Positions 20,689 to 44,800 of a stretch of DNA of 64,000 nt are shown here, one piece after another; position 1 is the stretch's first letter; the number at the start of each line of letters is the position of its first letter. The notes under the pieces are model-generated. The model ran no database searches, was not told the origin of the DNA, and was given only the letters and a program-made list of their open reading frames with translations. The DNA comes from Owenia fusiformis (taxonomy: Eukaryota; Annelida; Polychaeta; Sabellida; Oweniidae), in assembly GCA_903813345.2 (NCBI GenBank), contig CAIIXF020000009.1, positions 21,417,759-21,481,758 on the forward strand, given 5' to 3'. Both the position numbers and the translations under genes were made by a program.

Positions 20689-21024
20689 AAGACAAGCATA
20701 TATTTTTTCAAATGAAAAATCACAATTATTCTTATAGATAAATCTCAATCCGTCCAGTGTTGTCATAGAGTTTTTGAATTGCATTGCACTTTGTTTTATT
20801 GGCTGCATTTATGACTACAGTATGTGTAACATGTAAATAGAATGTAAATATATATAGAATTGTAGCCATAAAGGAATATGTGAGGCAGTTCAACATTTTC
20901 ATGACAATATCCGATTTCCATTATTTCTGGAATTCTGATTTCCAGTATTTCCGGAATTCTGTTGTATGTTTACATATGTATATAATATTGTAGATATACA
21001 AACAATGCTATATTGGAAAAGATA

Positions 21025-21030
21025 AATAAA
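21025..21030 (+). terminator. Candidate poly(A) signal for DNAI2
   Basis: AATAAA about 900 bp after the DNAI2 stop codon. Other A-rich variants are closer, so the true site is uncertain. Confidence 0.3.
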
Positions 21031-26222: not shown

Positions 26223-29200
26223 TTATTTCTTGGTAGCTTCTTTCTGTGCCTTGAGTACCCGGGCAACAATCTTCTGTTCTTCAATTAGGAAAGCACGCAC
26301 GATCCTGCAATTGAAGAAATAATTTATCAGTACATTAAGTTAAGTTGAAAAAAATAGAGCAAAACCTCACATACATTAATTTATGCAATGTTGACAGAAT
26401 TAGGTGATTAAACTGGCTAATAACAATGCAAAAATACATATCTTAATCTCGTGACCCAACATACTCGTTTACATTTTAATCATCACTACTGACCTCAGAC
26501 TACAAAATTGCATTCATAAACTGTACATGACTGTTTCAGATCGGCAAATTGTATTCATCATTGGTTGCATTCAATACTTTGATATTGCAGGGGTTTCATT
26601 AGGAGCAGACAACATGTGATTTTCACCCGCTGTTTTCACAAAATCGCCTGTTGTTTTAAAGGACTTTTCAACTTTTCCATGTTTAATTTATGATTTCCAT
26701 TAATTTTGCTATCAATTGTTGTTCTCATTTATTTAGCCTTTTGTGAAAAGTTCTAGTGAAACTCCTGTATAGTATTTTTTATGCATTTACATTAACAAAT
26801 ATGTCTTGATTGTTAGGAGTATATATGACACTTTATATTTTGTCTGGAAAAATCAGCTCAGATAATTTTTCGATCAAATTAAATATAAAGTCACATTTTC
26901 AGATTAATTAAATGGCAATGTTTACAAACTACGCATTTTTCAAAGAAATGCTCAAGAGATATGCAGGGCAGTTGATTCTTTCCTACCAGTTCAGTTAAGT
27001 GTGAACACAAAAAATCGAACACTTGAGTGTTGTTGTAGGAGTCTTTCACAAGTGTTCAATCAAACACTATTTTGTCAACTATAAAAATCAAAACAGTGAA
27101 TTCTGACATAAAAAAATAGTCAGATTATTCCTCTTGACATTGCATACCTGCCAACCTACCGTATTTTTACGGGAATCTACCGTAAATTTTTCGTTTTTCC
27201 GTAAAAAAATGACAAACTACCGTAAAAAAATACCATCTTTTTCCCGTAAAAAAATCTACCGTATTTTTTTCGAAATCTACCGTAAATTTTTTTTTTTAAA
27301 CTCGTTTATTCCATGAGAACAGCCGTAAAATCTACCGTAAACTTTTGAAAATCTACCGTAAATTTTCGAAAATCTACCGTATTTCTGCTAAAATCAACAG
27401 TATTTTTGTTCAAACTACCGTAAAATTTCCCGTTATTGTTGGGAAATGCTGAAAAATGGAAGTCTTCCTGTACTGTCCCTGTAATATTTCTTCACCAACC
27501 CGAATATAAATAGGTATCGGCAGGTCTGTGGTTATCAGGTTATTGAGCATTTATCAAAGTAAGCTTGCGTGTAAGCTTGCGTCCAAACACCAACTACCAC
27601 TAGCTAGAAAGAATTCGTTCTGCCATGATTTTTGTAGTTAACCAAACCCTTTTGTACACAGATATGAGCGTAGCGCCTATTACGCAAAATACGCACAGGC
27701 GTACCAAATGAATTTGAAAAAAATAAAAATTTGTTAAAATGCATTAATTTATTTGCGAATTTATTGATGCTTCCTACCGTGTCTGTATTTTTACGATTGT
27801 CAACATTTAAAGTTGATAAAAACGCTTAGATTCCATCAAATAACGTACTTGAAAAAATATTTCCCGGGGAAGCAAATCGGCCACGCAATCAGGCATCCCC
27901 GTGTGTGCATACCGACTCAAAATATTGTTTTAGCGTATGAAATATGCGTAGTTTGATTTGTTAAATCAATTTGTTTACAGTACGATAAAATGTTGTATTT
28001 TTCATCAGAACACATTATATCAGTAACAAATACAATTAAAAAATAAAGCATTGAGTTTGGGTTTATTATAAAAGTATTGTGATATCCGAATCTGAACGAT
28101 GTCTCAGGGGAAAGGTTTCAGCAAATGCTCATAACATATTATTTTTGAAAGACAATTGATCTGTACTTATTTTCTATTTGTGCCAGACAAACACATTGAT
28201 ATCATTAGAGACTTGCGAGTGAACAAATCAATATTTAATACCATATGATTCCAATGTTATATGAACATTATGTCTGTCATTTCAATTCGTTAAAGTGATA
28301 GATCATCTAAGATGATGAGTAAAAACGTGTAAAATCCATATTTTGTATTTCAGTAAATGTTTCATTGGTATTTCCAAACTTACATCCTGATATCTAAAAA
28401 AACTGGTTAGAAGGTGAATAAAAGTGGAGATATGAATATTGTGTTCGTATTTTGAATCAATCTAGATTTATTGTAAAAGAGTTGTAAAATAGTTGTATTC
28501 ATATACATGTACATTTTGCTGAAACATTAAAATCCAAAGTTGCTGTCAGTCCATTGTAGGCATGGTAAATGAAGAATAAAAAGTGTTTAGTCTCTATTTA
28601 TTCTTGAAAATAGTTTTATGACGTGCACGGACCTGGGGACAATTCGGGAAATACGGACTAATCTCAGCTTTGAGCGTTAATCTCTGCCTTATTTAAAAAG
28701 CTAACTATGTGTTTTACATATCATTTTGAAGTATTTTTTATTCGCATTTCAGTGAAATTATTTTTCCTTCAAAATTTTGATGGGATCCAACATTTTTTTA
28801 AAGTTAAAAATATCCCGACATCGTCAAATACGCTGTAAGACGTAACACTTTACGCTTATAGGGCTCCTTGAAATTGGGATAACTTTTGAAATAATGATCA
28901 AAATCCCACTAAAATTTCACAATTTATTCAATGGAACATGTTCATTTATGACGTCACAATTGCTTAACGGCTCCCGCTCAAATCATCGTATATGAACGCT
29001 TTTAAAATTTTCAAAATTGTGTAAGGTTTTGAAGGCGAATGGGACGAGCAATAAGTTTACCTTTATTTAACCTTCTAATCTAAGTCTGATTTGAAAGAAA
29101 AATTAACAGCACAATATTGTAATGGCGAAATTTACAAAACAACAATCAGTTTGTTTATTTTGCAAATAATATTAAAATAAGAGCTGGTTTTCGAGACTTG

Positions 29201-32200
29201 AAAAAATGTGACGCATCGATTTTTTACCACAAATTCCATACATATCAATTTTTACCAACGCCCCAAGTGGATTTCTTGACCGTTTTTCAAAATTCAAAAA
29301 CATTTTTGAAATATTGTCCTCGAGATCTTGCTACCCTGTGAATTTTGTGATGATTAGATAAGGATAAAGTATTTTATTTTTAGGTTGACTAAACTTGACA
29401 AAAATGTGACGCGTCGTTTTTGACGTTGTAAGGCTGTTTGCGCCCTATGCAGCTCACTGTTTTGTCTTGGTTTTTGACGCCATAATGTTACGCTAATTGT
29501 CCCCAGTTTCGTGCGACTATATCTATTTTTTCTTGAAAATAATAGTTTCGTATAATTCTCAGGTGGTAGTTCTGCTTTACAAACTGTAATTATCAAAAGC
29601 ACTCTTGCAGTAAAATATGTATTCACAATAACAAAAACAATATGACCACGTAAACATTGTATTAATATAGAAAACCGCATTGTATAAAGGTTTAACTACC
29701 GCATTTTTCAAAATCTACCGAAAAATACCGCATTTTGGCAAATCTTTGGCAAGAGTACCAGTTTTTCAAAAAATTACCGTAAAAACTACTGCAAGTTTCA
29801 AAATCTACCGTAAAACTACCGCATTTTTTCAAAATCTTCCGCAAAAGTACAGTTTTTTCCTAAAATTACCGTAAAAACTACCGCAATTTTCGAAATCTAC
29901 CGTAAAACTACCGCATTTTTTCAAAATCTTCCGCAAAACTACCGGTTTTTTAAAAAAACTACCGCATTTTTTCAAAATTTACCGTAAAACTACCCCATTT
30001 TTCAGAATCTTCCGCAAAACTACCGCTTTTTCAAATTCCTACCGCAAACCTCTGAAACTACAGTATTTTTTAAAAATCTACCGCAAAAACTACCGTATTT
30101 TTTTAAATCTACCGCAAAAACTACCGTTTTTTTAAAAATCTACGGCAAAAACTACCGTTTTTTCTAAAATCTACCGCAAAAACTACAGCAATTTTGTTGA
30201 AAAATACCGCAAAAACTACCGTATTTTGAAAAAATCTACCGCAAAAATACAGCAATTTTAAAGAAATCTACCGCAAAATTTTGGTCTTAGGTTGGCAGGT
30301 ATGCATTGTGTATGTTCCAGTAATGACTGTTTTAAAATCATGCCTCTCGAGAAATTTTTGATATTCCTCAAAATGCTCCATTGTAAATTCAAGCTGACAA
30401 TAAAAACATCCTTTAAAGGTTGACTTGACATGTAGGCCTAGTAGGCAAAAAAATAGAATAAATGAAACAAAAACTGTCAATTATGTTATGTACTTCACAG
30501 TACTATGGATTGAAAAAGATAAATAATCACAGACATTGTTAAGAATAATCTCAGACATTGTTAAATCATTCTCTTTTATCATTATCATAAGTACACACTA
30601 CACAGTGGAGAATCAGAGTTGATGAAAGTAATAGTATGTAGATTCATGTACGAGGGGTGATCAGGAATTTCTGGACCGTTGACTCTATTTTTGCCATTTT
30701 TTATCCTTTCTTACTGATTTTTTCACATAATATAACCCAAATAAATAGCATCACATCATGAAGATTTCATTGTTCTATGACATCATTATCCCATTATTTT
30801 TGTCACCTTGGTAATCGGTGACGCGACAAGGTGGAGCTCAGAAAAATACCAAATTTGAAAATCAACAGTAGTTTTATATTACATTTTTTGACACTGTATT
30901 CATTGCTGAATATGTTACAAACATCCTCAAATAGGTTGTACTATATCATTAAGTATATTCATTAATGTTCATAATAACTGGCATTATTCTTCTATCAATT
31001 CTAATCCTCCAAAGTAGTTACCAGCATTTTGTAAGCATTTGTTATGCCTTTTCACCTATTCCTGAAAGATGTGATACAGGCCGTCTTTGCCTACAAAATG
31101 TGATTGTTTCCATCGGCTGTGGCTGTGTACCACACGCACCGTATTCCCAATGCCGTGTACCACACGCACCGTATTCCCCAGACTTAGCTGACTGTGATTT
31201 CTATCTTTTCCCAACAGTGAAGACAAAATTATGAGGTATCCACTTTGAGGCCAGTAATGAGATCATTTAGGAATTCACACACCACGTCTTTCAGGACTGG
31301 GTGAAAAGACATAACAAATGCTTACAAAGTACTGGTAACTACTTTGAAGTATTATAAATGATGGAAGAATAATGACAGATGCACATTAATGAATATACTT
31401 AATGAAATAATACAACCTAGACAGTATGTCACATATTCAGCAATGAATACAGTGTCCAAACATCATATAAAATTACTGTTGTTTTTCAAATTTGGTATTT
31501 TTTCATATTACTGTTGTTTTTCAAATTTGGTATTTTTTCTGAGCTCCACCTTGTCGCGTCACCGGTTACCATGGTAACAAAAATAATAAGATAATGATGG
31601 CATAGAATAATGAAATCTTCGTGAGGTGATCCTATATATTTGGGTTATATTATGTAAAGAAATCAGTAAGAAAGGATAAAAAATGGCAAAAATAGAGCCA
31701 ACGGTCCAGAAATTCCTGATCACCCCTCGTAGAAACATAAGGCAGCACTTATGTTGAGCTTAATGGAACATCTTCCCATTCCCAGTGGTTAGAAAAGATT
31801 TCTCTGAATTACTTAGAATAACTTACCTGCTTCGTACACATCTGTGACACCTGGATCCTCCATATGTGCGGCTTACTGACTTGTGGCGTTTTGACATGGC
31901 CATCAGTTCCTTAGGTCTGGCAGGGGTAATCTACAAAGTAACATGACAGTGGTATCAGTCATATGGTTGCAACTTTAAGTACATTGTACAAAGAATAAAT
32001 CAATAAAGTACATTGTATGTAAAGAACACACTTGTTCAAAAGTAACATTACAGAGTATTGTTGTTGTTACTGTACAAAAATGATGAATTTGAACAAATTT
32101 TGAAAGAAAATATTCAACCAAAAGAAAAATGTGATAAATTTTGTGCAGTGCGAATACCCGGCCCCAGGAATTTAGAAATTTGGCAGACTAACAATTTGGC

Positions 32201-35200
32201 AGATCTACCATATTAAGTAGAAGTACTGTAAATTGCTTTATTTGACGGCTGTTTTTTAAAAAACTCCCCAGGACCTAAAGTGTCATTGAAAATACTTTCG
32301 ATACTTTGATTGTAACCACATTTTATTAAATTTTAGCTCATACCTGAAGGTAAAATCCCTCGTCTCACCTAAAACTAACCTAGCTAAGTGACTTCCTAGC
32401 TTGCCCTCCAATATTCATAATTAACTGATCGGTAAATCCGCCGAATTAAATAGCAGCCAAAATTTCAAAATTTGCCCTATCCGCCAAATTAAATAGTGCC
32501 AAATTAAATCAATTTATAGTACATAGCCTACATTGTATGTGTGTAACAAATATTTCCAACTTAACATCTTAAGATTTATAGTTTTTATGTTCTTTGTCAG
32601 GATTCATTTAGATGAAAATAATTAGTGCTAATGTCGTTGTGTACTTCAGAGCGCTGTGGAAAAGATAATAATCATGGTACATCATTGAACCAATCTTTTC
32701 TATCATCATAGGTACACATTCACTTATCAAAACTGTTAATAGAGTATGTAGAAGATAGTTTACTCACTCCATGGAGCTTTACTTTGCAGTCTCCACATTT
32801 AGGGATGCTTCCAAGCTTCTTCTTGTAAAGGTACACAAGTTTTCCACCTGAGTTAAAAATAAAAATAGTTAAAGCATTAAATAATATCTTATTTTACTGC
32901 CATCATTTCACAATGGTTGATCAAATTTATGTGTACTTCAGAGCGCTGTGGAAAAGATAATAATCACAGTTATCATTGAACCAATCTTTTCTATCATCAT
33001 ATGTACACAAACAGTGGAGACGATTAGGCCGTTTAACGTTTATTCCGACAATTGACGTCATTGTGCGTTAATTGCCAGGTATCGAGTTAATTGACGTACT
33101 TCAAATTCATATTGATTAGCCCTTATTTTCATTGCATTTCATTTCAGAAAAATACTTTTTTTGTGATATTTACATACAGGTAAGCTTAAATTTTGAATTA
33201 TTTAGCATATGGAAGAACATGACTTTACTTCTTTCTGTTTCAACCAAGTTTTTAGATGCAGAAACACAATAGTATAATCACTTGAACAACTGACTACCAA
33301 ATATCAGGATGGCTTATTTTGCAGTTAACACCAACGAGAGAGGCATCTGGGACATGTTTATTACAATTTGGGCAACATATTTTAATATAACTACACTCCT
33401 CAAAAAAAGTTAAGGACCAGTGGTTTTCCTCATAGGTTTACATGTTAACCCCCATATTTGTTTGAACGACTATTTTCTAAGCGTGGAACAAGAGAAATCC
33501 CAATAAAGTAAATAAATCTGTATCTTGATTCTATTCCTATAAAGTCTGCAGCGTTTCAATGTTATATCTCCATTATATTGGGTCAAAATTTGATGTCAAA
33601 ATTGATGAATTTCATGAAATGTAACAAAAATGGGGAATGGTTTGGTTGCCATAAGTCATATGAGGAACGATCCATCCATCCGATTGCTCTCAAAATTGAA
33701 ATTGTAAGAGACTACGGATTATTTAACGCCGTCCTTACATTAGATGGACCCCAAAAAATAATGTTGGACGGAAAAATAAAAAACTCCAGAGTCCCTTGGA
33801 CGCACTTTATTTTTACAGCAATTTCCAAAAACCTTACCTCTTAGAACACTCAAACAGTAGTACAAATGAAAGAATATAAATTGGCCTACCTTGTGAAGAC
33901 AAAATCTAAGTATAATAGGCAGATAATCAGCAGTGTTTCAGAGAAACACGGAGATAATTATCTTACTGTAATTCGGCCACCATTTTGATTGACCTCTAAA
34001 ACCAAAACATCATTGCTTTGAGATTAATGGGTCAGTAGCAAAAAACCTTTATCACTGTCCTGCCATCTTTCAATGGATACTATTATTAACAATTAGCCTA
34101 CGCATAAACTTGACAACAAACTGTTTAATTAATACAATTGATCTTTTTGGCATTATCTTACATCATAGTGAGAAAGCACAAAGGGCAACATTTGAAAACA
34201 AATAAAATATTACAAGTCAAAAATACATATCAAACTATTGAATGTTGATCTTTATATTTCATTGAGATTGATAATGTGTCAGAAAGGAATATTGAGTTTA
34301 TTAATTTACATCAGAGTGAGGAGGAACAAGGGGCAACATTGAAAAACAAAGTAATTAAGAAAAAAATTAATTACAATCAATTATGTATTATAAATATTAT
34401 TATTGGAAATTTTTTGCCGAGATATGCCAGAATGCACCAGAGAGGGTCTAAATTACAAAATTGTCTGAGCTAGTATGTACCTACAGTACATGTATGTGTA
34501 TTATTTGAACAGATTTAGATAAAAAGAGGAAAAATTGAATTATCATTACATCCTTCATGTATTGACAATGATGATAATGAGCATTATGAAATGTTACAAT
34601 AAATATGTTTATGTAGTTGTAAGTTTAGTTAATATAAAATCACTCCATAAGACTACATGGTAAAAAAGACAAAAATGCCTTACATTTGTGTTACTTTAGA
34701 AAAAAACGAGTACTTGAATTTGCTTTATCCAATTTTTTCATTTTTAATTAGTTTCAGGCCTTTAATTTTTTGGACCCACTTTTTTTGGTTTGGACTCCAT
34801 TTTTTTTTACCGTGGGGTCCATTGGACCCACTTTTTGGTAACACTAAATAAAACGCTGAAGAGATAATTAAATTTGCTAAATTGTCCATTCATCAAAAAT
34901 ATGATTTAATTGTCCAGGCTTTACAAAAGATAATGGTTTCAAATTCAATAATTTTTTAATGATCCTCTTATTGAAATAACACAGGTGGTTCAGTGAGGTG
35001 GTCAAAATTACTTTAACGCTCCGTATCGCTAATTTTAACAACATATGCGAGACATTTAGCAAGTAAAATCATTCAATTTTCTACAAAGAAAATATTTTTA
35101 ATAAATGTTTTACTGAATAGATATTTCAAAATCTGAGTTGCCCCTAAGCCACCATTCCCCATTTTAAGTAATGGTCATGTGACTAGCACGATACAGGAAA

Positions 35201-38200
35201 AATGGGGAATTTCGAAACAACAATTTTTGGGCACTTTTATTGCAAATTTCAGGTATTTATTGTGTTTGTGGTATAAAATATAATCCCCAGACATAAATGA
35301 ACATCCATACTACATACCGGTATTTGATTAAGTTTGGAGCCTTTTTTGCTCTTAAATTAACATCTTTAAATGACCTAATCGTCTCCACTGCCAAATAGAA
35401 CAACATTGTTCTGTAGTCTATTGATTGTTTATTTAGGCAAAAACAAATGCACTTTGAAAATGTGATTTAAAACAAAAAAGATTTAAGCTACTTTGGAGAA
35501 AGAGTTGTCATCTCAAGAGTTATGATTCAAAGACGATATAAACAAAATTAGATTACCTGGAGTTTTGGTTCTGTTTCATATAACAGCAGCATCCAGCACA
35601 ATATATGAAAATAGAGGTAAGAAAATATGTTAGATTTGGTTAGTTGAGCATGCTTTAAAACAGAGGGTTGAGATTCTTATTAAATTCCTACAGATACTAG
35701 ATTCGGAATCTTATTTTAACAGATCAATAACAATGCAATTTGTAAAGAACATCATGAAAGAGGAAATACTCCAAGATGGAATATAAAAAATATAATATAA
35801 ATATAAAAATATGATATAAAAAATAGTATTAGAATGTGTACTTCAGAGCGCTGTGGAAAAGATAATAAATCATAAACATCATTGAACCAATCTTTTCTAT
35901 CATCATAGGTACACACTCGACTCATCGATTCAATTTCTCTTCCTGACCATACTGTCTTCACGTGTCATGATTTCACTAGGTAACCTAGGTTACCAGAGGT
36001 CGTGGTATTAGCAGTTAATACGTGGTAATAGCATATCATTCTCTTATTTTAGGAAGTCAAACTTATAAATGGAATATTGACTCAAAGTTTAGCAAAGTTG
36101 TTCAATCTAAATCATTACCAGAATAGATGCCGCAGCAATTTTAGTAGGATACTCATAGATTCTGACAAGATTCATGTGTAGATAAAGTAGGATCAGTAGC
36201 TCAATAAATATTGCTCAAGATGAGACACCAAAGAAAATTTCAAATTTTAAAATAATGATTGTGCATATGTTTCTGATATATATATATGAGACAATTCATA
36301 CCTCATTCGTTAGAATATTGTTATTTACCTTTCATCATAATGAATGGTATACAAGCAATACTGCGTTCATAAGAGGCCAAAAATAGTAGTGGTATAACGA
36401 GTGACTCGGGTAATCAACTAGAACTTGAATAAGCCTAGCAAAATGATCAATCAATTGAAAATTCGTGATCCTGAAAATTTCTGAGAAAATTGCGATTTAC
36501 CCCCAATAGGGGGTAAGTCCCATCACTTATCGGTGGGCTCTTGACTGTCCAAATCTGAATGATACCCTCGTGATTTAAGATATGTGACGTCAGCATTTTA
36601 CAATGATATTTGGACAGACAGGAGCCCGGAAAAAGATTTGGTGTCTCAAGGAATATTTACTACTTTTTTCAAGGCCCGACTTCGTCGCTAACATGCTAAA
36701 TATAAGAGTTAGCTGACGTTTGGGAGTCTGACTTACCTTCTAAAGGTTAGAACCAGAATCTTAATGAAACCATATCACCTTTGTTGCGTCGATGATGATG
36801 CATAAACTAGGGCCGGAACGATTAGTCTAACTAGTTGGATACGACGAAAGTTGGGCTGATAGTCGACTTTGATTTTGAAAAATCGATCGTCGAAGACATA
36901 TCCCCGGGAAAAATTGTGAAGAAAAGTTCATAAATAAACGTTCACTCACCTCATTTTTGTGATGTTGTTATGTATTTTCCTTACTTATCCAGCCCAAAAT
37001 GCATGTTTCTACTCTTCAAAACACTTCAAACATATGCTATAAACAGATTCACTTCTTTATTCGATACTAATTGAAGTTATTTAACTTTTAAAAAGTTTAC
37101 TTTTAGCGATCAATTAAAGGCCGCCGAAGCACTTCATTTTTAATTGGCAAGAATATAGTCCCACACATTTATCATTTTTATAATGTGCTATCATGCAATA
37201 TGGGTATATGTGCCATCGCAAATCGCAATGATCACCCGTGACCGTTAGGGTAAAGTATTCCCATATGGGAGACTTCCCTTTTGAGTTTGACATTTTATTT
37301 AAATATTGCGCGAATTCAAACTAAGTAGTTCCGGTAACGGTCAAGGTCAGCGGAAGTAAATAGAAGAAGACGTTTATTTACAACAATGATAAATTCTAGT
37401 TGAATTATTGCATAAAACAACACAAATACACAATATAAACTTTAAAAACGATCGATTTATTATATTTGATACATTGTTTATACAAGAAACAGAGTACTAG
37501 GAGAAACAAATCTGTAAATGCGGCAAAAACTGATGACAGATAAAGGTAATATTTTATTTTTATTTTTTCCGAAGCCAGGGGGCAACTAATCGATGACGAC
37601 TCAACTAAGACACCTCAACTAGTCGACTCCGAAATTCATAGTTGGTTCTGGCCCTAGCATAAACATAGCATTTGATAGAAATTAGTGTAAATGCTTTTCC
37701 GACTTTTTCATTTTTCATCAATGTTGACTTCCGGGAAGGCGTTGTAGTTATCACGAAATAACGTATTGACCCTTGAACTTTACTTTGTTGACGTGTCAAC
37801 CAAGCATGTCTGGTGTGAAAATTAAAAGAATATTAAGCAATGTTCTACATCCGCCAAGCTAAGTGAAGTAGCCAATATTTAAAATTACCAATTTCAAGTG
37901 AAGTACGCAACGAATGAAACTGCGTGATCTACAGTCCCACTATTTGTCTGAACGAAATGCTACGTAGAAATATGAGCTGTCTGCTGTATTAGTCGATTAA
38001 TAGAGTAAGACCTGTTGGTGATGCTTTATAATTTAGACCAAAACATTGAAGAACATACGAACCTGTAAATCGTGAAAACAACGCCAGGTCAGGCCTTGAA
38101 AAAAGTAGTAATGAGCTACTGATCCTACTCCAAAAGAATCTGTGAGGACACTCACAGAAAAGGTCATTTTAAAAGTGTACTTACATCTTTCTTCTGTTGG

Positions 38201-38249
38201 ACTGGGTGTTGTAGGTCAACCTACGACGGAAAGTAAGTCGCTGTACCAT
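26223..38249 (-). CDS. RPL34: 60S ribosomal protein L34 (eL34), 5 coding exons, 114 aa
   Basis: Coding exons: 38249-38185, 35570-35557 (14 nt), 32847-32768, 31930-31827, 26304-26223, all GT..AG, 345 nt in phase. The protein begins MVQRLTFRRRLTYNTQSNRR and has KITKTPGGKLVYLYKKK, SKRHKSVSRTYGGSRC and a C-terminus RAFLIEEQKIVARVLKAQKE, matching eL34 throughout; human RPL34 is 117 aa. The paired cysteines C44/C47 and C81/C84 fit the family's zinc-binding CxxC motifs. It is a cytosolic large-subunit protein. The coding start lies 5 nt after an acceptor (GATTTTCAG), so a noncoding first exon must exist upstream; a donor-like GTAAGC at 38604 follows TTCCGGTTCCT and could end it. All four introns carry copies of a C/D-box snoRNA-like sequence, and the introns are enlarged by transposons. 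Divergent from VTI1A. Confidence 0.95.
27141..30305. mobile_element. 3.2-kb element with inverted ends and arrays of CTACCGTAAAA
   Basis: The left end TGCATACCTGCCAACCTA is repeated inverted at the right end (30288-30305). Inside each end is an array of 9-15 bp motifs: CTACCGTAAA/CCGTATTTTT on the left (27158-27440) and CTACCGCAAAA/TACCGTAAAA on the right (29690-30285), dozens of copies in all. The centre (27.45-29.68 kb) is AT-rich with no convincing ORF. No target duplication could be assigned. It fills over half of the last RPL34 intron. Confidence 0.65.
30487..30597 (-). ncRNA. Degenerate fourth copy of the RPL34 intronic snoRNA
   Basis: Aligns along its length with the three intact copies (GTACTTCA end, AAAAGATAAATAATCA, ATCATTATCATAAGTACACA end on the + strand), but the C box is disrupted by an insertion (ATGATAATGATA), the D box reads GTGA instead of CTGA, and an AGACATTGTTAA segment is duplicated inside. 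Probably a pseudogene. It sits in the last RPL34 intron between two transposons. Confidence 0.55.
30651..31729 (+). mobile_element. Mariner-type foldback element with transposase C-terminal remnant
   Basis: Ends CGAGGGGTGATCAGGAATTT and its inverse, flanked by TA (30649-30650, 31730-31731). The inverted arms run about 400 bp each, far longer than usual mariner TIRs, and include transposase coding sequence: on the + strand APYSPDLADCDFYLFPTVKT (the PDL..CD catalytic end of mariner transposases) at about 31164-31223, then in the right arm FQDWVKRHNKCLQSTGNYFE (31288-31347), also present antisense in the left arm. A 24-bp direct duplication (TGTACCACACGCACCGTATT) precedes it. Stops interrupt the frame; nonautonomous. 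Confidence 0.85.
32638..32718 (-). ncRNA. C/D-box snoRNA-like gene in RPL34 intron 3 (copy C)
   Basis: On the minus strand: terminal stem TGTGTAC (32718-32712) pairing with GTACACA (32644-32638), C box ATGATGA (32709-32703) and D box CTGA (32649-32646), 81 nt in all. A C'-like AATGATG follows TTGGTTC, and the D-box-proximal segment is TATCTTTTCCACAGCGCT. It is in the sense orientation of its host, as expected for intronic snoRNAs. Target not identified. Confidence 0.75.
32930..33009 (-). ncRNA. C/D-box snoRNA-like gene in RPL34 intron 2 (copy B)
   Basis: Same family as copies at 32638 and 35835: stem TGTGTAC/GTACACA, C box ATGATGA (33000-32994), D box CTGA (32941-32938), 80 nt. Its 3' end is 82 nt upstream of the acceptor at 32848, the spacing usual for intron-processed C/D snoRNAs. 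The internal variable segment is AACTGTGA. A transposon end (33012) abuts its 5' side. Confidence 0.75.
33012..35390. mobile_element. 2.4-kb element with CAGTGGAGACGATTAGG inverted ends
   Basis: The left end CAGTGGAGACGATTAGGCCG is inverted at the right end (35368-35390, one or two mismatches). No matching target duplication was found and the interior holds no recognisable transposase, only AT-rich DNA and an unrelated CACTCCTCAAAAAAAGTTAA motif at 33396 that looks like one end of a Tc1-like element. Lies in RPL34 intron 2, directly next to the snoRNA copy. Confidence 0.6.
35557..35570 (-). other. RPL34: 14-nt microexon of RPL34
   Basis: The exon AACCAAAACTCCAG is bounded by AAACAG and GTAATC. 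It completes the codon ATA and adds T-K-T-P and the first base of G, giving RKITKTPGGKLVYLY, which matches the conserved R-I/V-x-K/R-T-P-G-G-K segment of eL34. Skipping it would shift the frame, so it should be constitutive. The polypyrimidine tract is weak. Confidence 0.85.
35835..35915 (-). ncRNA. C/D-box snoRNA-like gene in RPL34 intron 1 (copy A)
   Basis: Same family as 32638 and 32930: stem TGTGTAC/GTACACA, C box ATGATGA (35906-35900), D box CTGA (35846-35843), 81 nt, sense to RPL34. Conserved internal pairing GAAAAGAT/ATCTTTTC is present. It lies about 260 nt upstream of the microexon acceptor. Confidence 0.75.
36808..37656. mobile_element. 849-bp nonautonomous hAT element
   Basis: Ends TAGGGCCGGAACGATTAGTC and, inverted, TAGGGCCAGAACCAACTATG, of the form common in hAT elements. 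A perfect 8-bp duplication, GCATAAAC, flanks it (36800-36807, 37657-37664). Subterminal CTAGTTG/GTCGACT motifs recur at both ends. No transposase. Lies in RPL34 intron 1. Confidence 0.8.
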
Positions 38250-41800: not shown

Positions 41801-44800
41801 ATGAAACAAAGGAACTGGTAAGTTTTAACAATTTTGTAATATTAATAAGATTATTGTATAACAGAGTTACTTGCCATTACCTTTTTATTGTAAACCAAAA
41901 TAATAATGTGGGATAGTAATTTAAAAACCTCTCGATTTTGCTTAAAGTTGAAAAATTAGCAGAACACAAAGTCACTTTCAAGCACTTTAGAGGTTGAAAT
42001 TAGAGATTACAAGATATAGGTCCATATCCCGAGAAAATATTTTCATCTTTCTTAGGATGGATTCTGGTGCCAAAAACAGCCGATTCATACATACTACTAT
42101 ATATCAGGTGTCCCAAAAAATGAGCCACTTTTTGACAAGTATTAATTGGCAACTGGTGAACTTGTTACAAAGTAGCCCAAGAGGATTGTTAGAAAGGTAC
42201 AAACATGAATATGTAAGAGATTGGTCTCATAATATGCGACATGCGTGTCTTTTTGAATTGAAGACAGTGTATCAAAATAACCAATATCAATGTAAAAGTC
42301 ACTTATTAATCCATTTCCAAGCAAAAATACTTTTCCGTATTTATTCTAACAATATCACCTCCAATGAATTTTGAGAATGAATTGGATTTTGGACATTTGG
42401 GACGAATGAAAAGAATTAATCAGACATCACATGTCTCCCATTGAACGCAGTGAAGACTGATTGTGCGGAGACGATAGCTGGTACAAACACTATAGAGATC
42501 TCATATCAGAGCTCCGGTATGGGAGTTTTTGACATGCTATTTTGAATTTCTTAGTACTCACAGAATACTCACTTGATCTTGTTTATATTTCTACAACTTG
42601 CTAATGATACTCTTAGTCTACTTTGTACAAATATTCATCAGTTGTTGAGCTAATACTTTTCAAAAAGTGGCTCATTTTTTGGGACACCTAATATTACTAT
42701 ACTATATACTACTATATATACTCAGAATAGAAAAGCAAAAATTTCACCACCATTTTCGCAAAATGAAAACTGAATAAAACATCATTTATTCTAAAGGCTT
42801 AGAATACTTACTCAGACATGCATTCTCAGATTATTGGAAATATTATTGACCATTTTCTAATTATAGAAGGGTAGTGATGTGACTTTTTTCAAAAATAATC
42901 TTTAAATTTTAAAAATTTACTCAAAGATTATCAGCTACTCTAAGTAGCTAAGGAGTCTACAAGACCAGGTTTAGATCTTGGCAATGTCATTTACCTTTTC
43001 TTCATTTTTGAACCACAATACATTTTCTTGATCTCTTATGATACATAGTCATATTTATTACTTTCAAGAGTTTTGAAATATAGATAAAATTACTGTATAT
43101 CCTGTTAACTATAAATTTGCATCTTGAAACACAAGTAAGAGGTAGTGATGACATATCATTGGTGATTGGATGAAAACAAATTTCAGTCATTTACGAAATT
43201 CATAGAACTGCCCAGAGATTTATCTAAAATCTATCTGTACTATCATTATTAACACCTGTCATTTAACACATCCGTTAATATTATTTCCGCTACTTGTTTT
43301 TTACCATATGTATTGCAAGACCCCCAGAGGGTTGAAATAGTGTCAGTGCATGTTTCAAAGGTTTGCATGAGACTCCCATGTGGGGAGGGTAAGGACTATG
43401 ACATGCAGTATTGCCCCAGGGGGTAAGCATTATCTAAGCACAAATGCCAAAGGGAAGGGACCAAAAACTGTTGGTAACAACTTAAGTTCATTTACTTCAG
43501 AGTAAAATGTTTTATTTTCGATGTTTCGCTAATCATCCAACTAGCTTTATCAAGATTCAAATTGGAAGTATACAGACAGCCAGAGTGATGAATTTACGCA
43601 GAAATGTTAAGAAACTGTTTGGCGAAGAGCCTTTAGTTAAAATGTTTTAGGACCCTAGTCATGACATCTTAGCATTACAATATTTTACAAGCTAGTTTAA
43701 ATCCATCCTTGTTGTTTAGCACAAAGTATAGATTAAGAAGCTGGAACAGAATAGTTATGTTGACTCAACCATGCTTCAATCAGTATTGTACCACTTTTTT
43801 CATCATCACACCATCGGTGGGATATAGTCGTCCTGATCGTGGTCGTGGTCGTTATCGTTTCTGGAAAACTGCTCATCAGATTTTCTCCAAATTCGCATTC
43901 ATGATAGGGGATATCAAGTTCTAGAGCTGATTGACTTTTGGATGGCCATCTTGTTTTCTGGTGGCCATCTTGAATATTTGTTTAGGAAAATTTTGTCATC
44001 GCCATTTAAGGAAAAACGCTCATGAGATTTTCTTCAAATTCGCAAACATGATAGGGGATATCATGCTGATTAACTTTTGGGTGACCATCTTGTTTTCTGG
44101 TGGCCATTTTGAAGGTTTTTCGATAAATCTTATCACCATTTTAGGAAAACCACTCGTCAAGTTTTGTCCAAATTCTCACAAATGATAGAGGGTTGTCTCC
44201 ATATTTTCACACATGATAGGGGATATCAAGTTCTAGAGCTGATTAACTTTTGGCCAGCCATCTTTTTTCTGGTGGCCATTTTGAAGATTTTTTGATGGTG
44301 TGATCTCGTTCACGTCATGTGCCTTGTTTACATGTATACCTACATATCTCTAAGACATTTTTGAAAAACAGGTGTCAACTAAATCATATTTCGTAAGACA
44401 TCATGAAAATGGTTAATTGTTATCTCAAGATCATTTTTCTAAAATGTTTAAGCCAAGACGTCTTTGAATATTGCATGTCGTGAGTTCATTGCCAATCTAC
44501 CTTTAAGCTTTTTACATGTATAACCTTGACCTAACAGTTTAATCACTGAAATATGGTGTCTTGATTTAAAATATATTTATTTTGTACACCCCTGCCATAT
44601 CTAATAAGCTGGGATACATAAACTCCCAGGAATTATGTCCAAGGAGTGAGGAATTGGATTTGCATGTGGCTAAGAGTGGGATAGTTGACTTGATTTTTTT
44701 TGTCCCAGAACACCAAAGGTGTAGAGGTACCAAAAGTTCCACTTCGACAATGTATTATACATGTGTACATTTTTACCATTATATGATTCTAGTTGGAGCA

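Follow-up and report, generated by a model that had tools for sequence, protein, structure and literature searches.

What are the related elements of about 80 nucleotides (nt) that recur in the introns of the RPL34 gene of the polychaete Owenia fusiformis, and which RNA would they guide? The question is raised by a 64,000-nt stretch of contig CAIIXF020000009.1 (positions 21,417,759 to 21,481,758 of the forward strand; hereafter the window), for which an earlier note, made from the letters alone, had proposed that every RPL34 intron holds a copy of the same box C/D small nucleolar RNA (snoRNA). As detailed below, the intact copies are very probably intron-encoded box C/D snoRNAs that guide methylation of a C in 28S ribosomal RNA (rRNA) at the site that corresponds to the human SNORD48 site, a reading that we base on sequence features, namely the boxes, the terminal stem, the intronic location and the match between guide and target.

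Copies of a box C/D element in RPL34 and elsewhere in the genome

Three closely similar copies (92-94% mutual identity, E ~1e-29 to 1e-32 in a blastn comparison within the window) are located at 35835-35915 in intron 1 (copy 1), 32930-33009 in intron 2 (copy 2) and 32638-32718 in intron 3 (copy 3), all on the minus strand, as are the exons, boxes and guides for which coordinates are given below; each of the three was delineated by blastn, alignment and a covariance model. Intron 4 contains a fourth copy, at 30487-30597, that was detected both by blastn (best E value, 3e-5) and by the covariance model, which was trained on the intact copies and gave it a score of 25.9 bits (E 0.0027), against 14.8 bits (E 0.93) for the runner-up in the window, 42194-42279. 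Judging from its sequence, this is a real though weak relative, and it is decayed because it has lost the CTGA D box, its C box is altered, and it contains a 22-nt internal tandem duplication (copy positions 33-54 and 55-76, with 2 mismatches). The earlier note is borne out on the places of all four, on the decay of the fourth and on the sense orientation with respect to the host gene. The window also contains other short, weak blastn matches, such as those at 31191-31211 (E 0.004) and at 21002-21029 (E 0.006).

When one copy was compared with the entire assembly (498 megabases, 525 contigs), 4 matches with E values up to 10 were obtained, namely, the three intact RPL34 copies and an 84-nt copy with 80% identity at C7:12999975-13000058, in sense orientation and with exons on either side, in a gene for a double-stranded RNA-binding protein, the best solved relatives of which are TARBP2 and Loquacious. 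The decayed copy was not reported in this search, which is therefore not exhaustive for weak relatives.

All four intact copies share an invariant C box (ATGATGA), D' box (ATGA) and D box (CTGA) in the alignment, the C and D boxes (RUGAUGA and CUGA in general form) being close to the ends of the element, together with a degenerate C' box (RTGATTW), so that the internal D'/C' pair typical of box C/D snoRNAs is present as well. The ends form a 7-base-pair (bp) terminal stem, UGUGUAC/GUACACA, with one G-U pair in the C7 copy. By counting on the sequence, copy 1 has its C box at 35900-35906, D' box at 35879-35882, C' box at 35867-35873, D box at 35843-35846 and terminal stem at 35909-35915/35835-35841; the D boxes of copies 2 and 3 are at 32938-32941 and 32646-32649. 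The boxes, the stem and the guide described below thus agree with the box C/D identity put forward in the earlier note.

Across the three RPL34 copies, the D' guide, the D guide and the C, D' and D boxes are identical, and the 10 variable columns inside the element comprise one beside the stem and 9 in the spacer between D' and C' and the columns of C' that border on it. The earlier statement that change is concentrated in the middle while the segments next to the boxes are constant accordingly stands, with the middle more exactly defined as this spacer and the C' columns next to it. The flanks (400 nt per side, five copies) show no match with E <0.05 except for the overlap of those of copies 2 and 3, which are 211 nt apart; since the flanks are unlike each other, conservation is confined to the snoRNA.

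The occurrence of copies in several introns and on another chromosome, within flanks that lack clear similarity, is also what might be expected of mobile or repeat-derived elements, such as snoRNA retrocopies or a repeat resembling a short interspersed element (SINE), without a guide function. The earlier note had named in advance a dispersed transposon, with many copies outside RPL34, as a result that would contradict its reading; the genome search gave scarcity instead, with just 4 matches in 498 megabases, three of them within RPL34 and one, on C7, outside it. Moreover, the boxes and the D guide stayed constant while the spacer changed, all copies are on the coding strand of their hosts, and visual inspection reveals no poly-A tail downstream of the copies in RPL34. 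We thus consider a mobile origin without guide function very unlikely.

The candidate target in 28S rRNA

The 12 nt on the 5' side of box D, TTCCACAGCGCT (35847-35858 in copy 1; the same element at 32942-32953 in copy 2 and 32650-32661 in copy 3), pair without gaps, starting from position -1, with the 28S sequence GGCGCUGUGGGA, through 10 Watson-Crick and 2 G-U pairs, and the guide of the C7 copy pairs with the same site over 13 nt; as a rule, box C/D guides adjoin D or D' on the upstream side and have a length of ~10 nt or more. The earlier note had proposed comparing this segment with the rRNAs of the species, a comparison that yields the 12-bp pairing, with the 28S read from fragments only. 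The box-D-anchored 12-bp duplex has the top score in an rRNA set of ~4.3 kilobases (kb) that consists of the partial 18S, the 5.8S and a 28S fragment of this species and one foreign 28S piece; in the readable half of the ribosomal DNA (rDNA), that is, 18S, the internal transcribed spacers (ITS) and 5.8S, the best score of the D guide is 9.5, compared to 13.9 at the 28S site. After shuffling of the 14-nt guide, 35 of 5000 sequences attained the target score in the case of the RPL34 copies and 8 of 5000 in that of the C7 copy; with longer guide strings, the respective counts are 8/400 and 0/400. Taken alone, the shuffle statistics provide moderate support for the target.

The target sequence itself, in the form AACTGGCGCTGTGGGATGAACC, occurs exactly at two dispersed places in the genome, of which one (L016) scores 149.9 bits with the Rfam model LSU_rRNA_eukarya and continues with AAACG, whereas the other (L015) is not scored by this model and diverges immediately past the target. 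CTGA follows CCACAGCGC at a distance of no more than 4 nt at 8 places in the genome. Four of these are the intact copies, and at each of the remaining four the 120 nt on the upstream side are free of RTGATGN and TGATGA motifs. Two further matches to AGCGCTGTGGAA in the genome are otherwise unlike the copies when compared by eye.

The earlier note could not match the guide to a known snoRNA or rRNA site; it fits the SNORD48 site of 28S. In the literature, SNORD48 is given as the guide of 28S Cm1881 (1868 in the older numbering; PMC5597630, PMC9941101), the guide and box of human SNORD48 read CCGCAGCGCTCTGA, and its published sequence ends with CCGCAGCGCTCTGACC in DNA letters (PMC7657557). The corresponding segment in all 4 intact copies is CCACAGCGCTCTGA, with 13 of 14 letters as in human SNORD48 (9 of 14 in the decayed copy). 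The human 28S sequence at the site is GCGCTGCGGG (reverse complement of a primer, PMC3025933), and that in the O. fusiformis genome is GCGCTGTGGG. The sole difference in the guide, an A in place of the human G, meets a U in place of C in the rRNA, so that the change in the guide compensates for that in the rRNA; a 28S primer for invertebrates, CCACAGCGCCAGTTCTGCTTAC, which appears in 9 papers, has the same U at the site (PMC11724654). Counted from box D, the fifth guide position is opposite the C of GGCGC, as it is for human SNORD48 on the human sequence; the A ten nt upstream fits the neighbouring site Am1871 (1858) (PMC5597630). Because the register of the guide falls on a known human Cm site, the predicted methylated C is most likely the counterpart of human 28S Cm1868/Cm1881.

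Another candidate target, Cm2409/SNORD5, was considered and rejected: it is 71 nt from the SNORD24 site and hence in a 28S stretch distinct from the one paired here, in which the SNORD48 register fits instead.

From these features, we infer the following course of expression and processing. The RPL34 pre-mRNA would be spliced, after which the C/D core and terminal stem would be bound by 15.5K/SNU13, NOP56, NOP58 and fibrillarin, and the snoRNA would be trimmed out of the debranched intron; this course is modelled on the known biology of box C/D snoRNAs. The D guide would then pair with the 28S site and place fibrillarin on the C five nt from the box. The extra copies would raise the dose, in that each RPL34 transcript could supply as many as three guides and the TARBP2-like gene one more.

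Several observations weigh against this assignment. Throughout the window, all Rfam families score below their gathering thresholds, and SNORD48 (RF00282) is absent even from the permissive matches (E up to 10) on the copies; the best RF00282 match in the genome, at 22.2 bits compared to a cut-off of 36, is elsewhere than the copies. As 66 of 31199 candidates were scored, this search falls short of demonstrating absence; the copies do not attain the family-model cut-off. The stability of the predicted folds is unremarkable (z -0.98, -1.37 and -1.84 in the intact RPL34 set, +0.39 on C7 and -2.19 in the decayed copy), and the predicted fold places parts of the guide in pairs with one another. 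The 28S half of the rDNA unit of this species reads N, and the target was taken from dispersed 28S fragments; in five foreign 28S pieces, the sequence is GGCGA, not GGCGC, and the site is never the best match of the RPL34 guide there. Vertebrate intronic snoRNAs favour a distance of 70-80 nt to the 3' splice site; copies 1, 2 and 3 are 264, 82 and 707 nt from the next exon, that is, just one of the three intact RPL34 copies (copy 2, the 3' end of which is 82 nt before exon 32768-32847) is at about 80 nt.

In favour of the reading, the permissive Rfam scan, applied to three loci that together include the four intact copies, listed 24 matches, half of them on the copies; all 12 of these are to box C/D families, compared to 2 of the 12 off the copies, where 7 are to microRNA families. 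As a positive control, the SNORD24 model applied to the genome produced 4 matches above the cut-off, of 11 with E up to 10.

Eukaryotic rRNA genes were also encountered in contigs deposited as bacterial assemblies (L011, L012, L013, L014), probably as contamination; all four read GGCGA at the site, where O. fusiformis has GGCGC. Of two scans for 28S in viral contigs, one gave a single unusable contig (L010) and the other none.

The D' element

The D' guide of the RPL34 copies, TAGAAAAGATTGGTTCA (35883-35899 in copy 1, identical in copies 2 and 3), gives a weaker signal. Its last 8 nt can pair with UGAACCAA, directly past the D target, but the D'-anchored match in 18S is slightly higher (9.9 vs 9.5 at 28S), and the best score is equalled or exceeded in 56 of 400 shuffles; the element differs in the C7 copy, for which the D' guide finds nothing (277/400 shuffles reach its best score). 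The D' element was therefore rejected as a second proven guide, in view of the higher 18S match, the shuffle counts and the lack of conservation in the C7 copy, and the pairing next to the D target is weakly suggestive. The D and D' elements of the RPL34 copies might jointly grip an unbroken 20-nt stretch of 28S, whether this serves to hold the RNA in place or leads to methylation of a second C, located 12 nt downstream. We regard this possibility as rather doubtful; the human site table has no site between 1881 and 2351, hence none at this second C (PMC5597630).

A related alternative is that the copies form a C/D family that uses the 28S contact as a chaperone, or has another target, and does not, or not only, direct methylation at the SNORD48 site, in which case the similarity to SNORD48 would be convergent. 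The fit of D' to the adjacent 8 nt of 28S resembles a holding contact, and outside the guide and D box the copies do not score with SNORD48; yet the register, the box and the site are those of a Cm that has been mapped in human, and we deem this alternative improbable.

The RPL34 host gene and its introns

Joining five exons in one frame yields a 114-amino-acid protein that contains the Ribosomal_L34e domain (Pfam, E 4e-42), which confirms RPL34 as the host gene named in the earlier note. In this reading, coding exon 1 extends from the ATG over 38185-38249 and is followed by a 14-nt micro-exon (35557-35570) that has AG/GT borders and restores the frame, coding exons 3 (32768-32847) and 4 (31827-31930), and the final coding exon that includes the stop codon (26223-26304). 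The micro-exon is located between introns of ~2.6 and ~2.7 kb, with one snoRNA copy in each. The four introns that separate the coding exons contain one element apiece, on the same strand as the host, and intron 1, the home of copy 1, spans the interval from 38185-38249 to 35557-35570. An acceptor-like AG immediately 5' of the ATG suggests a further intron in the 5' untranslated region (5'-UTR), in which neither blastn nor the covariance model identified a snoRNA copy within the window. The notion of a copy in every intron thus applies to the four introns between coding exons and does not extend to the putative 5'-UTR intron.

The presence of one copy per intron between the coding exons of a single gene, one of them a 14-nt micro-exon that might need help for inclusion, could also suggest intronic RNA elements that regulate splicing or expression of RPL34 and owe their C/D-like sequence to a snoRNA ancestor. 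An element that has the boxes and the D guide in common with them, however, resides in the unrelated gene on C7, and other C/D families show a similar layout in other hosts of this genome (see below), so this possibility appears barely credible compared to a set of box C/D guides for the SNORD48 site.

Intron 4 has additional features. Next to the decayed copy, there is a palindromic element with arms at 30649-30861 and 31519-31731 that are 90% complementary, and a degenerate array of short units containing GCGGTAGTTTT and GCGGTAGATTTT is discernible by eye at 29690-30290 on the minus strand.

Comparison with known snoRNAs and host genes

Among the titles and abstract openings covered, few of them from subscription journals, on snoRNAs and host genes involving RPL34 and on invertebrate U48, none describes this RNA. 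The best permissive Rfam match on the copies is snoZ169 (RF00331; 36.1 bits, E 0.0021), with the C, D', C' and D regions aligned; this score is below the gathering score of 55, and the copies have the boxes in common with snoZ169 but not the D guide.

The closest functional counterpart is SNORD48 (U48), with which the copies share the D box, the adjoining D guide, the 28S register and the predicted methylated C. They differ in length (80-81 nt, and 84 nt for the C7 match, compared to 63 nt in human SNORD48) and in the D' half, give no match with its Rfam model, and occur in multiple copies in RPL34, whereas the human host gene is presumably SNHG32/C6orf48. In sum, guide and register agree with SNORD48 and the family model does not, and the two may or may not share descent. 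The copies would represent a candidate guide, below Rfam cut-offs, for a 28S site that is partially methylated in people (PMC8522698), with a change in the guide that compensates for a difference in the rRNA.

The earlier note considered a set of paralogues, one per intron, to be unusual, a view contradicted both by the literature, according to which several paralogues per host gene are usual for box C/D RNAs, as with SNORD58 in the human ribosomal protein gene RPL17 (PMC8178906), and by two families in this genome. SNORD58 differs from the RPL34 copies in guide and host, and so does the SNORD24 family of three copies (~97% identity) in the orientation of an importin-5 gene (L027, C4:21775500-21784500), a family that attains the Rfam cut-off; a fourth SNORD24 match is at C6:20016426-20016501. 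The second family, containing TATTTGCTACT, comprises four copies with 85-95% identity that run in the direction of a casein kinase II alpha gene (L028, C3:29880500-29886500), divided by exon-like stretches, three of the four being listed below the SNORD24 cut-off. Both families were encountered through the SNORD24 control and are not a random sample; nevertheless, they indicate that the multiplication of a C/D RNA within the introns of a single host has happened repeatedly here, and the RPL34 set is an ordinary kind of gene layout.

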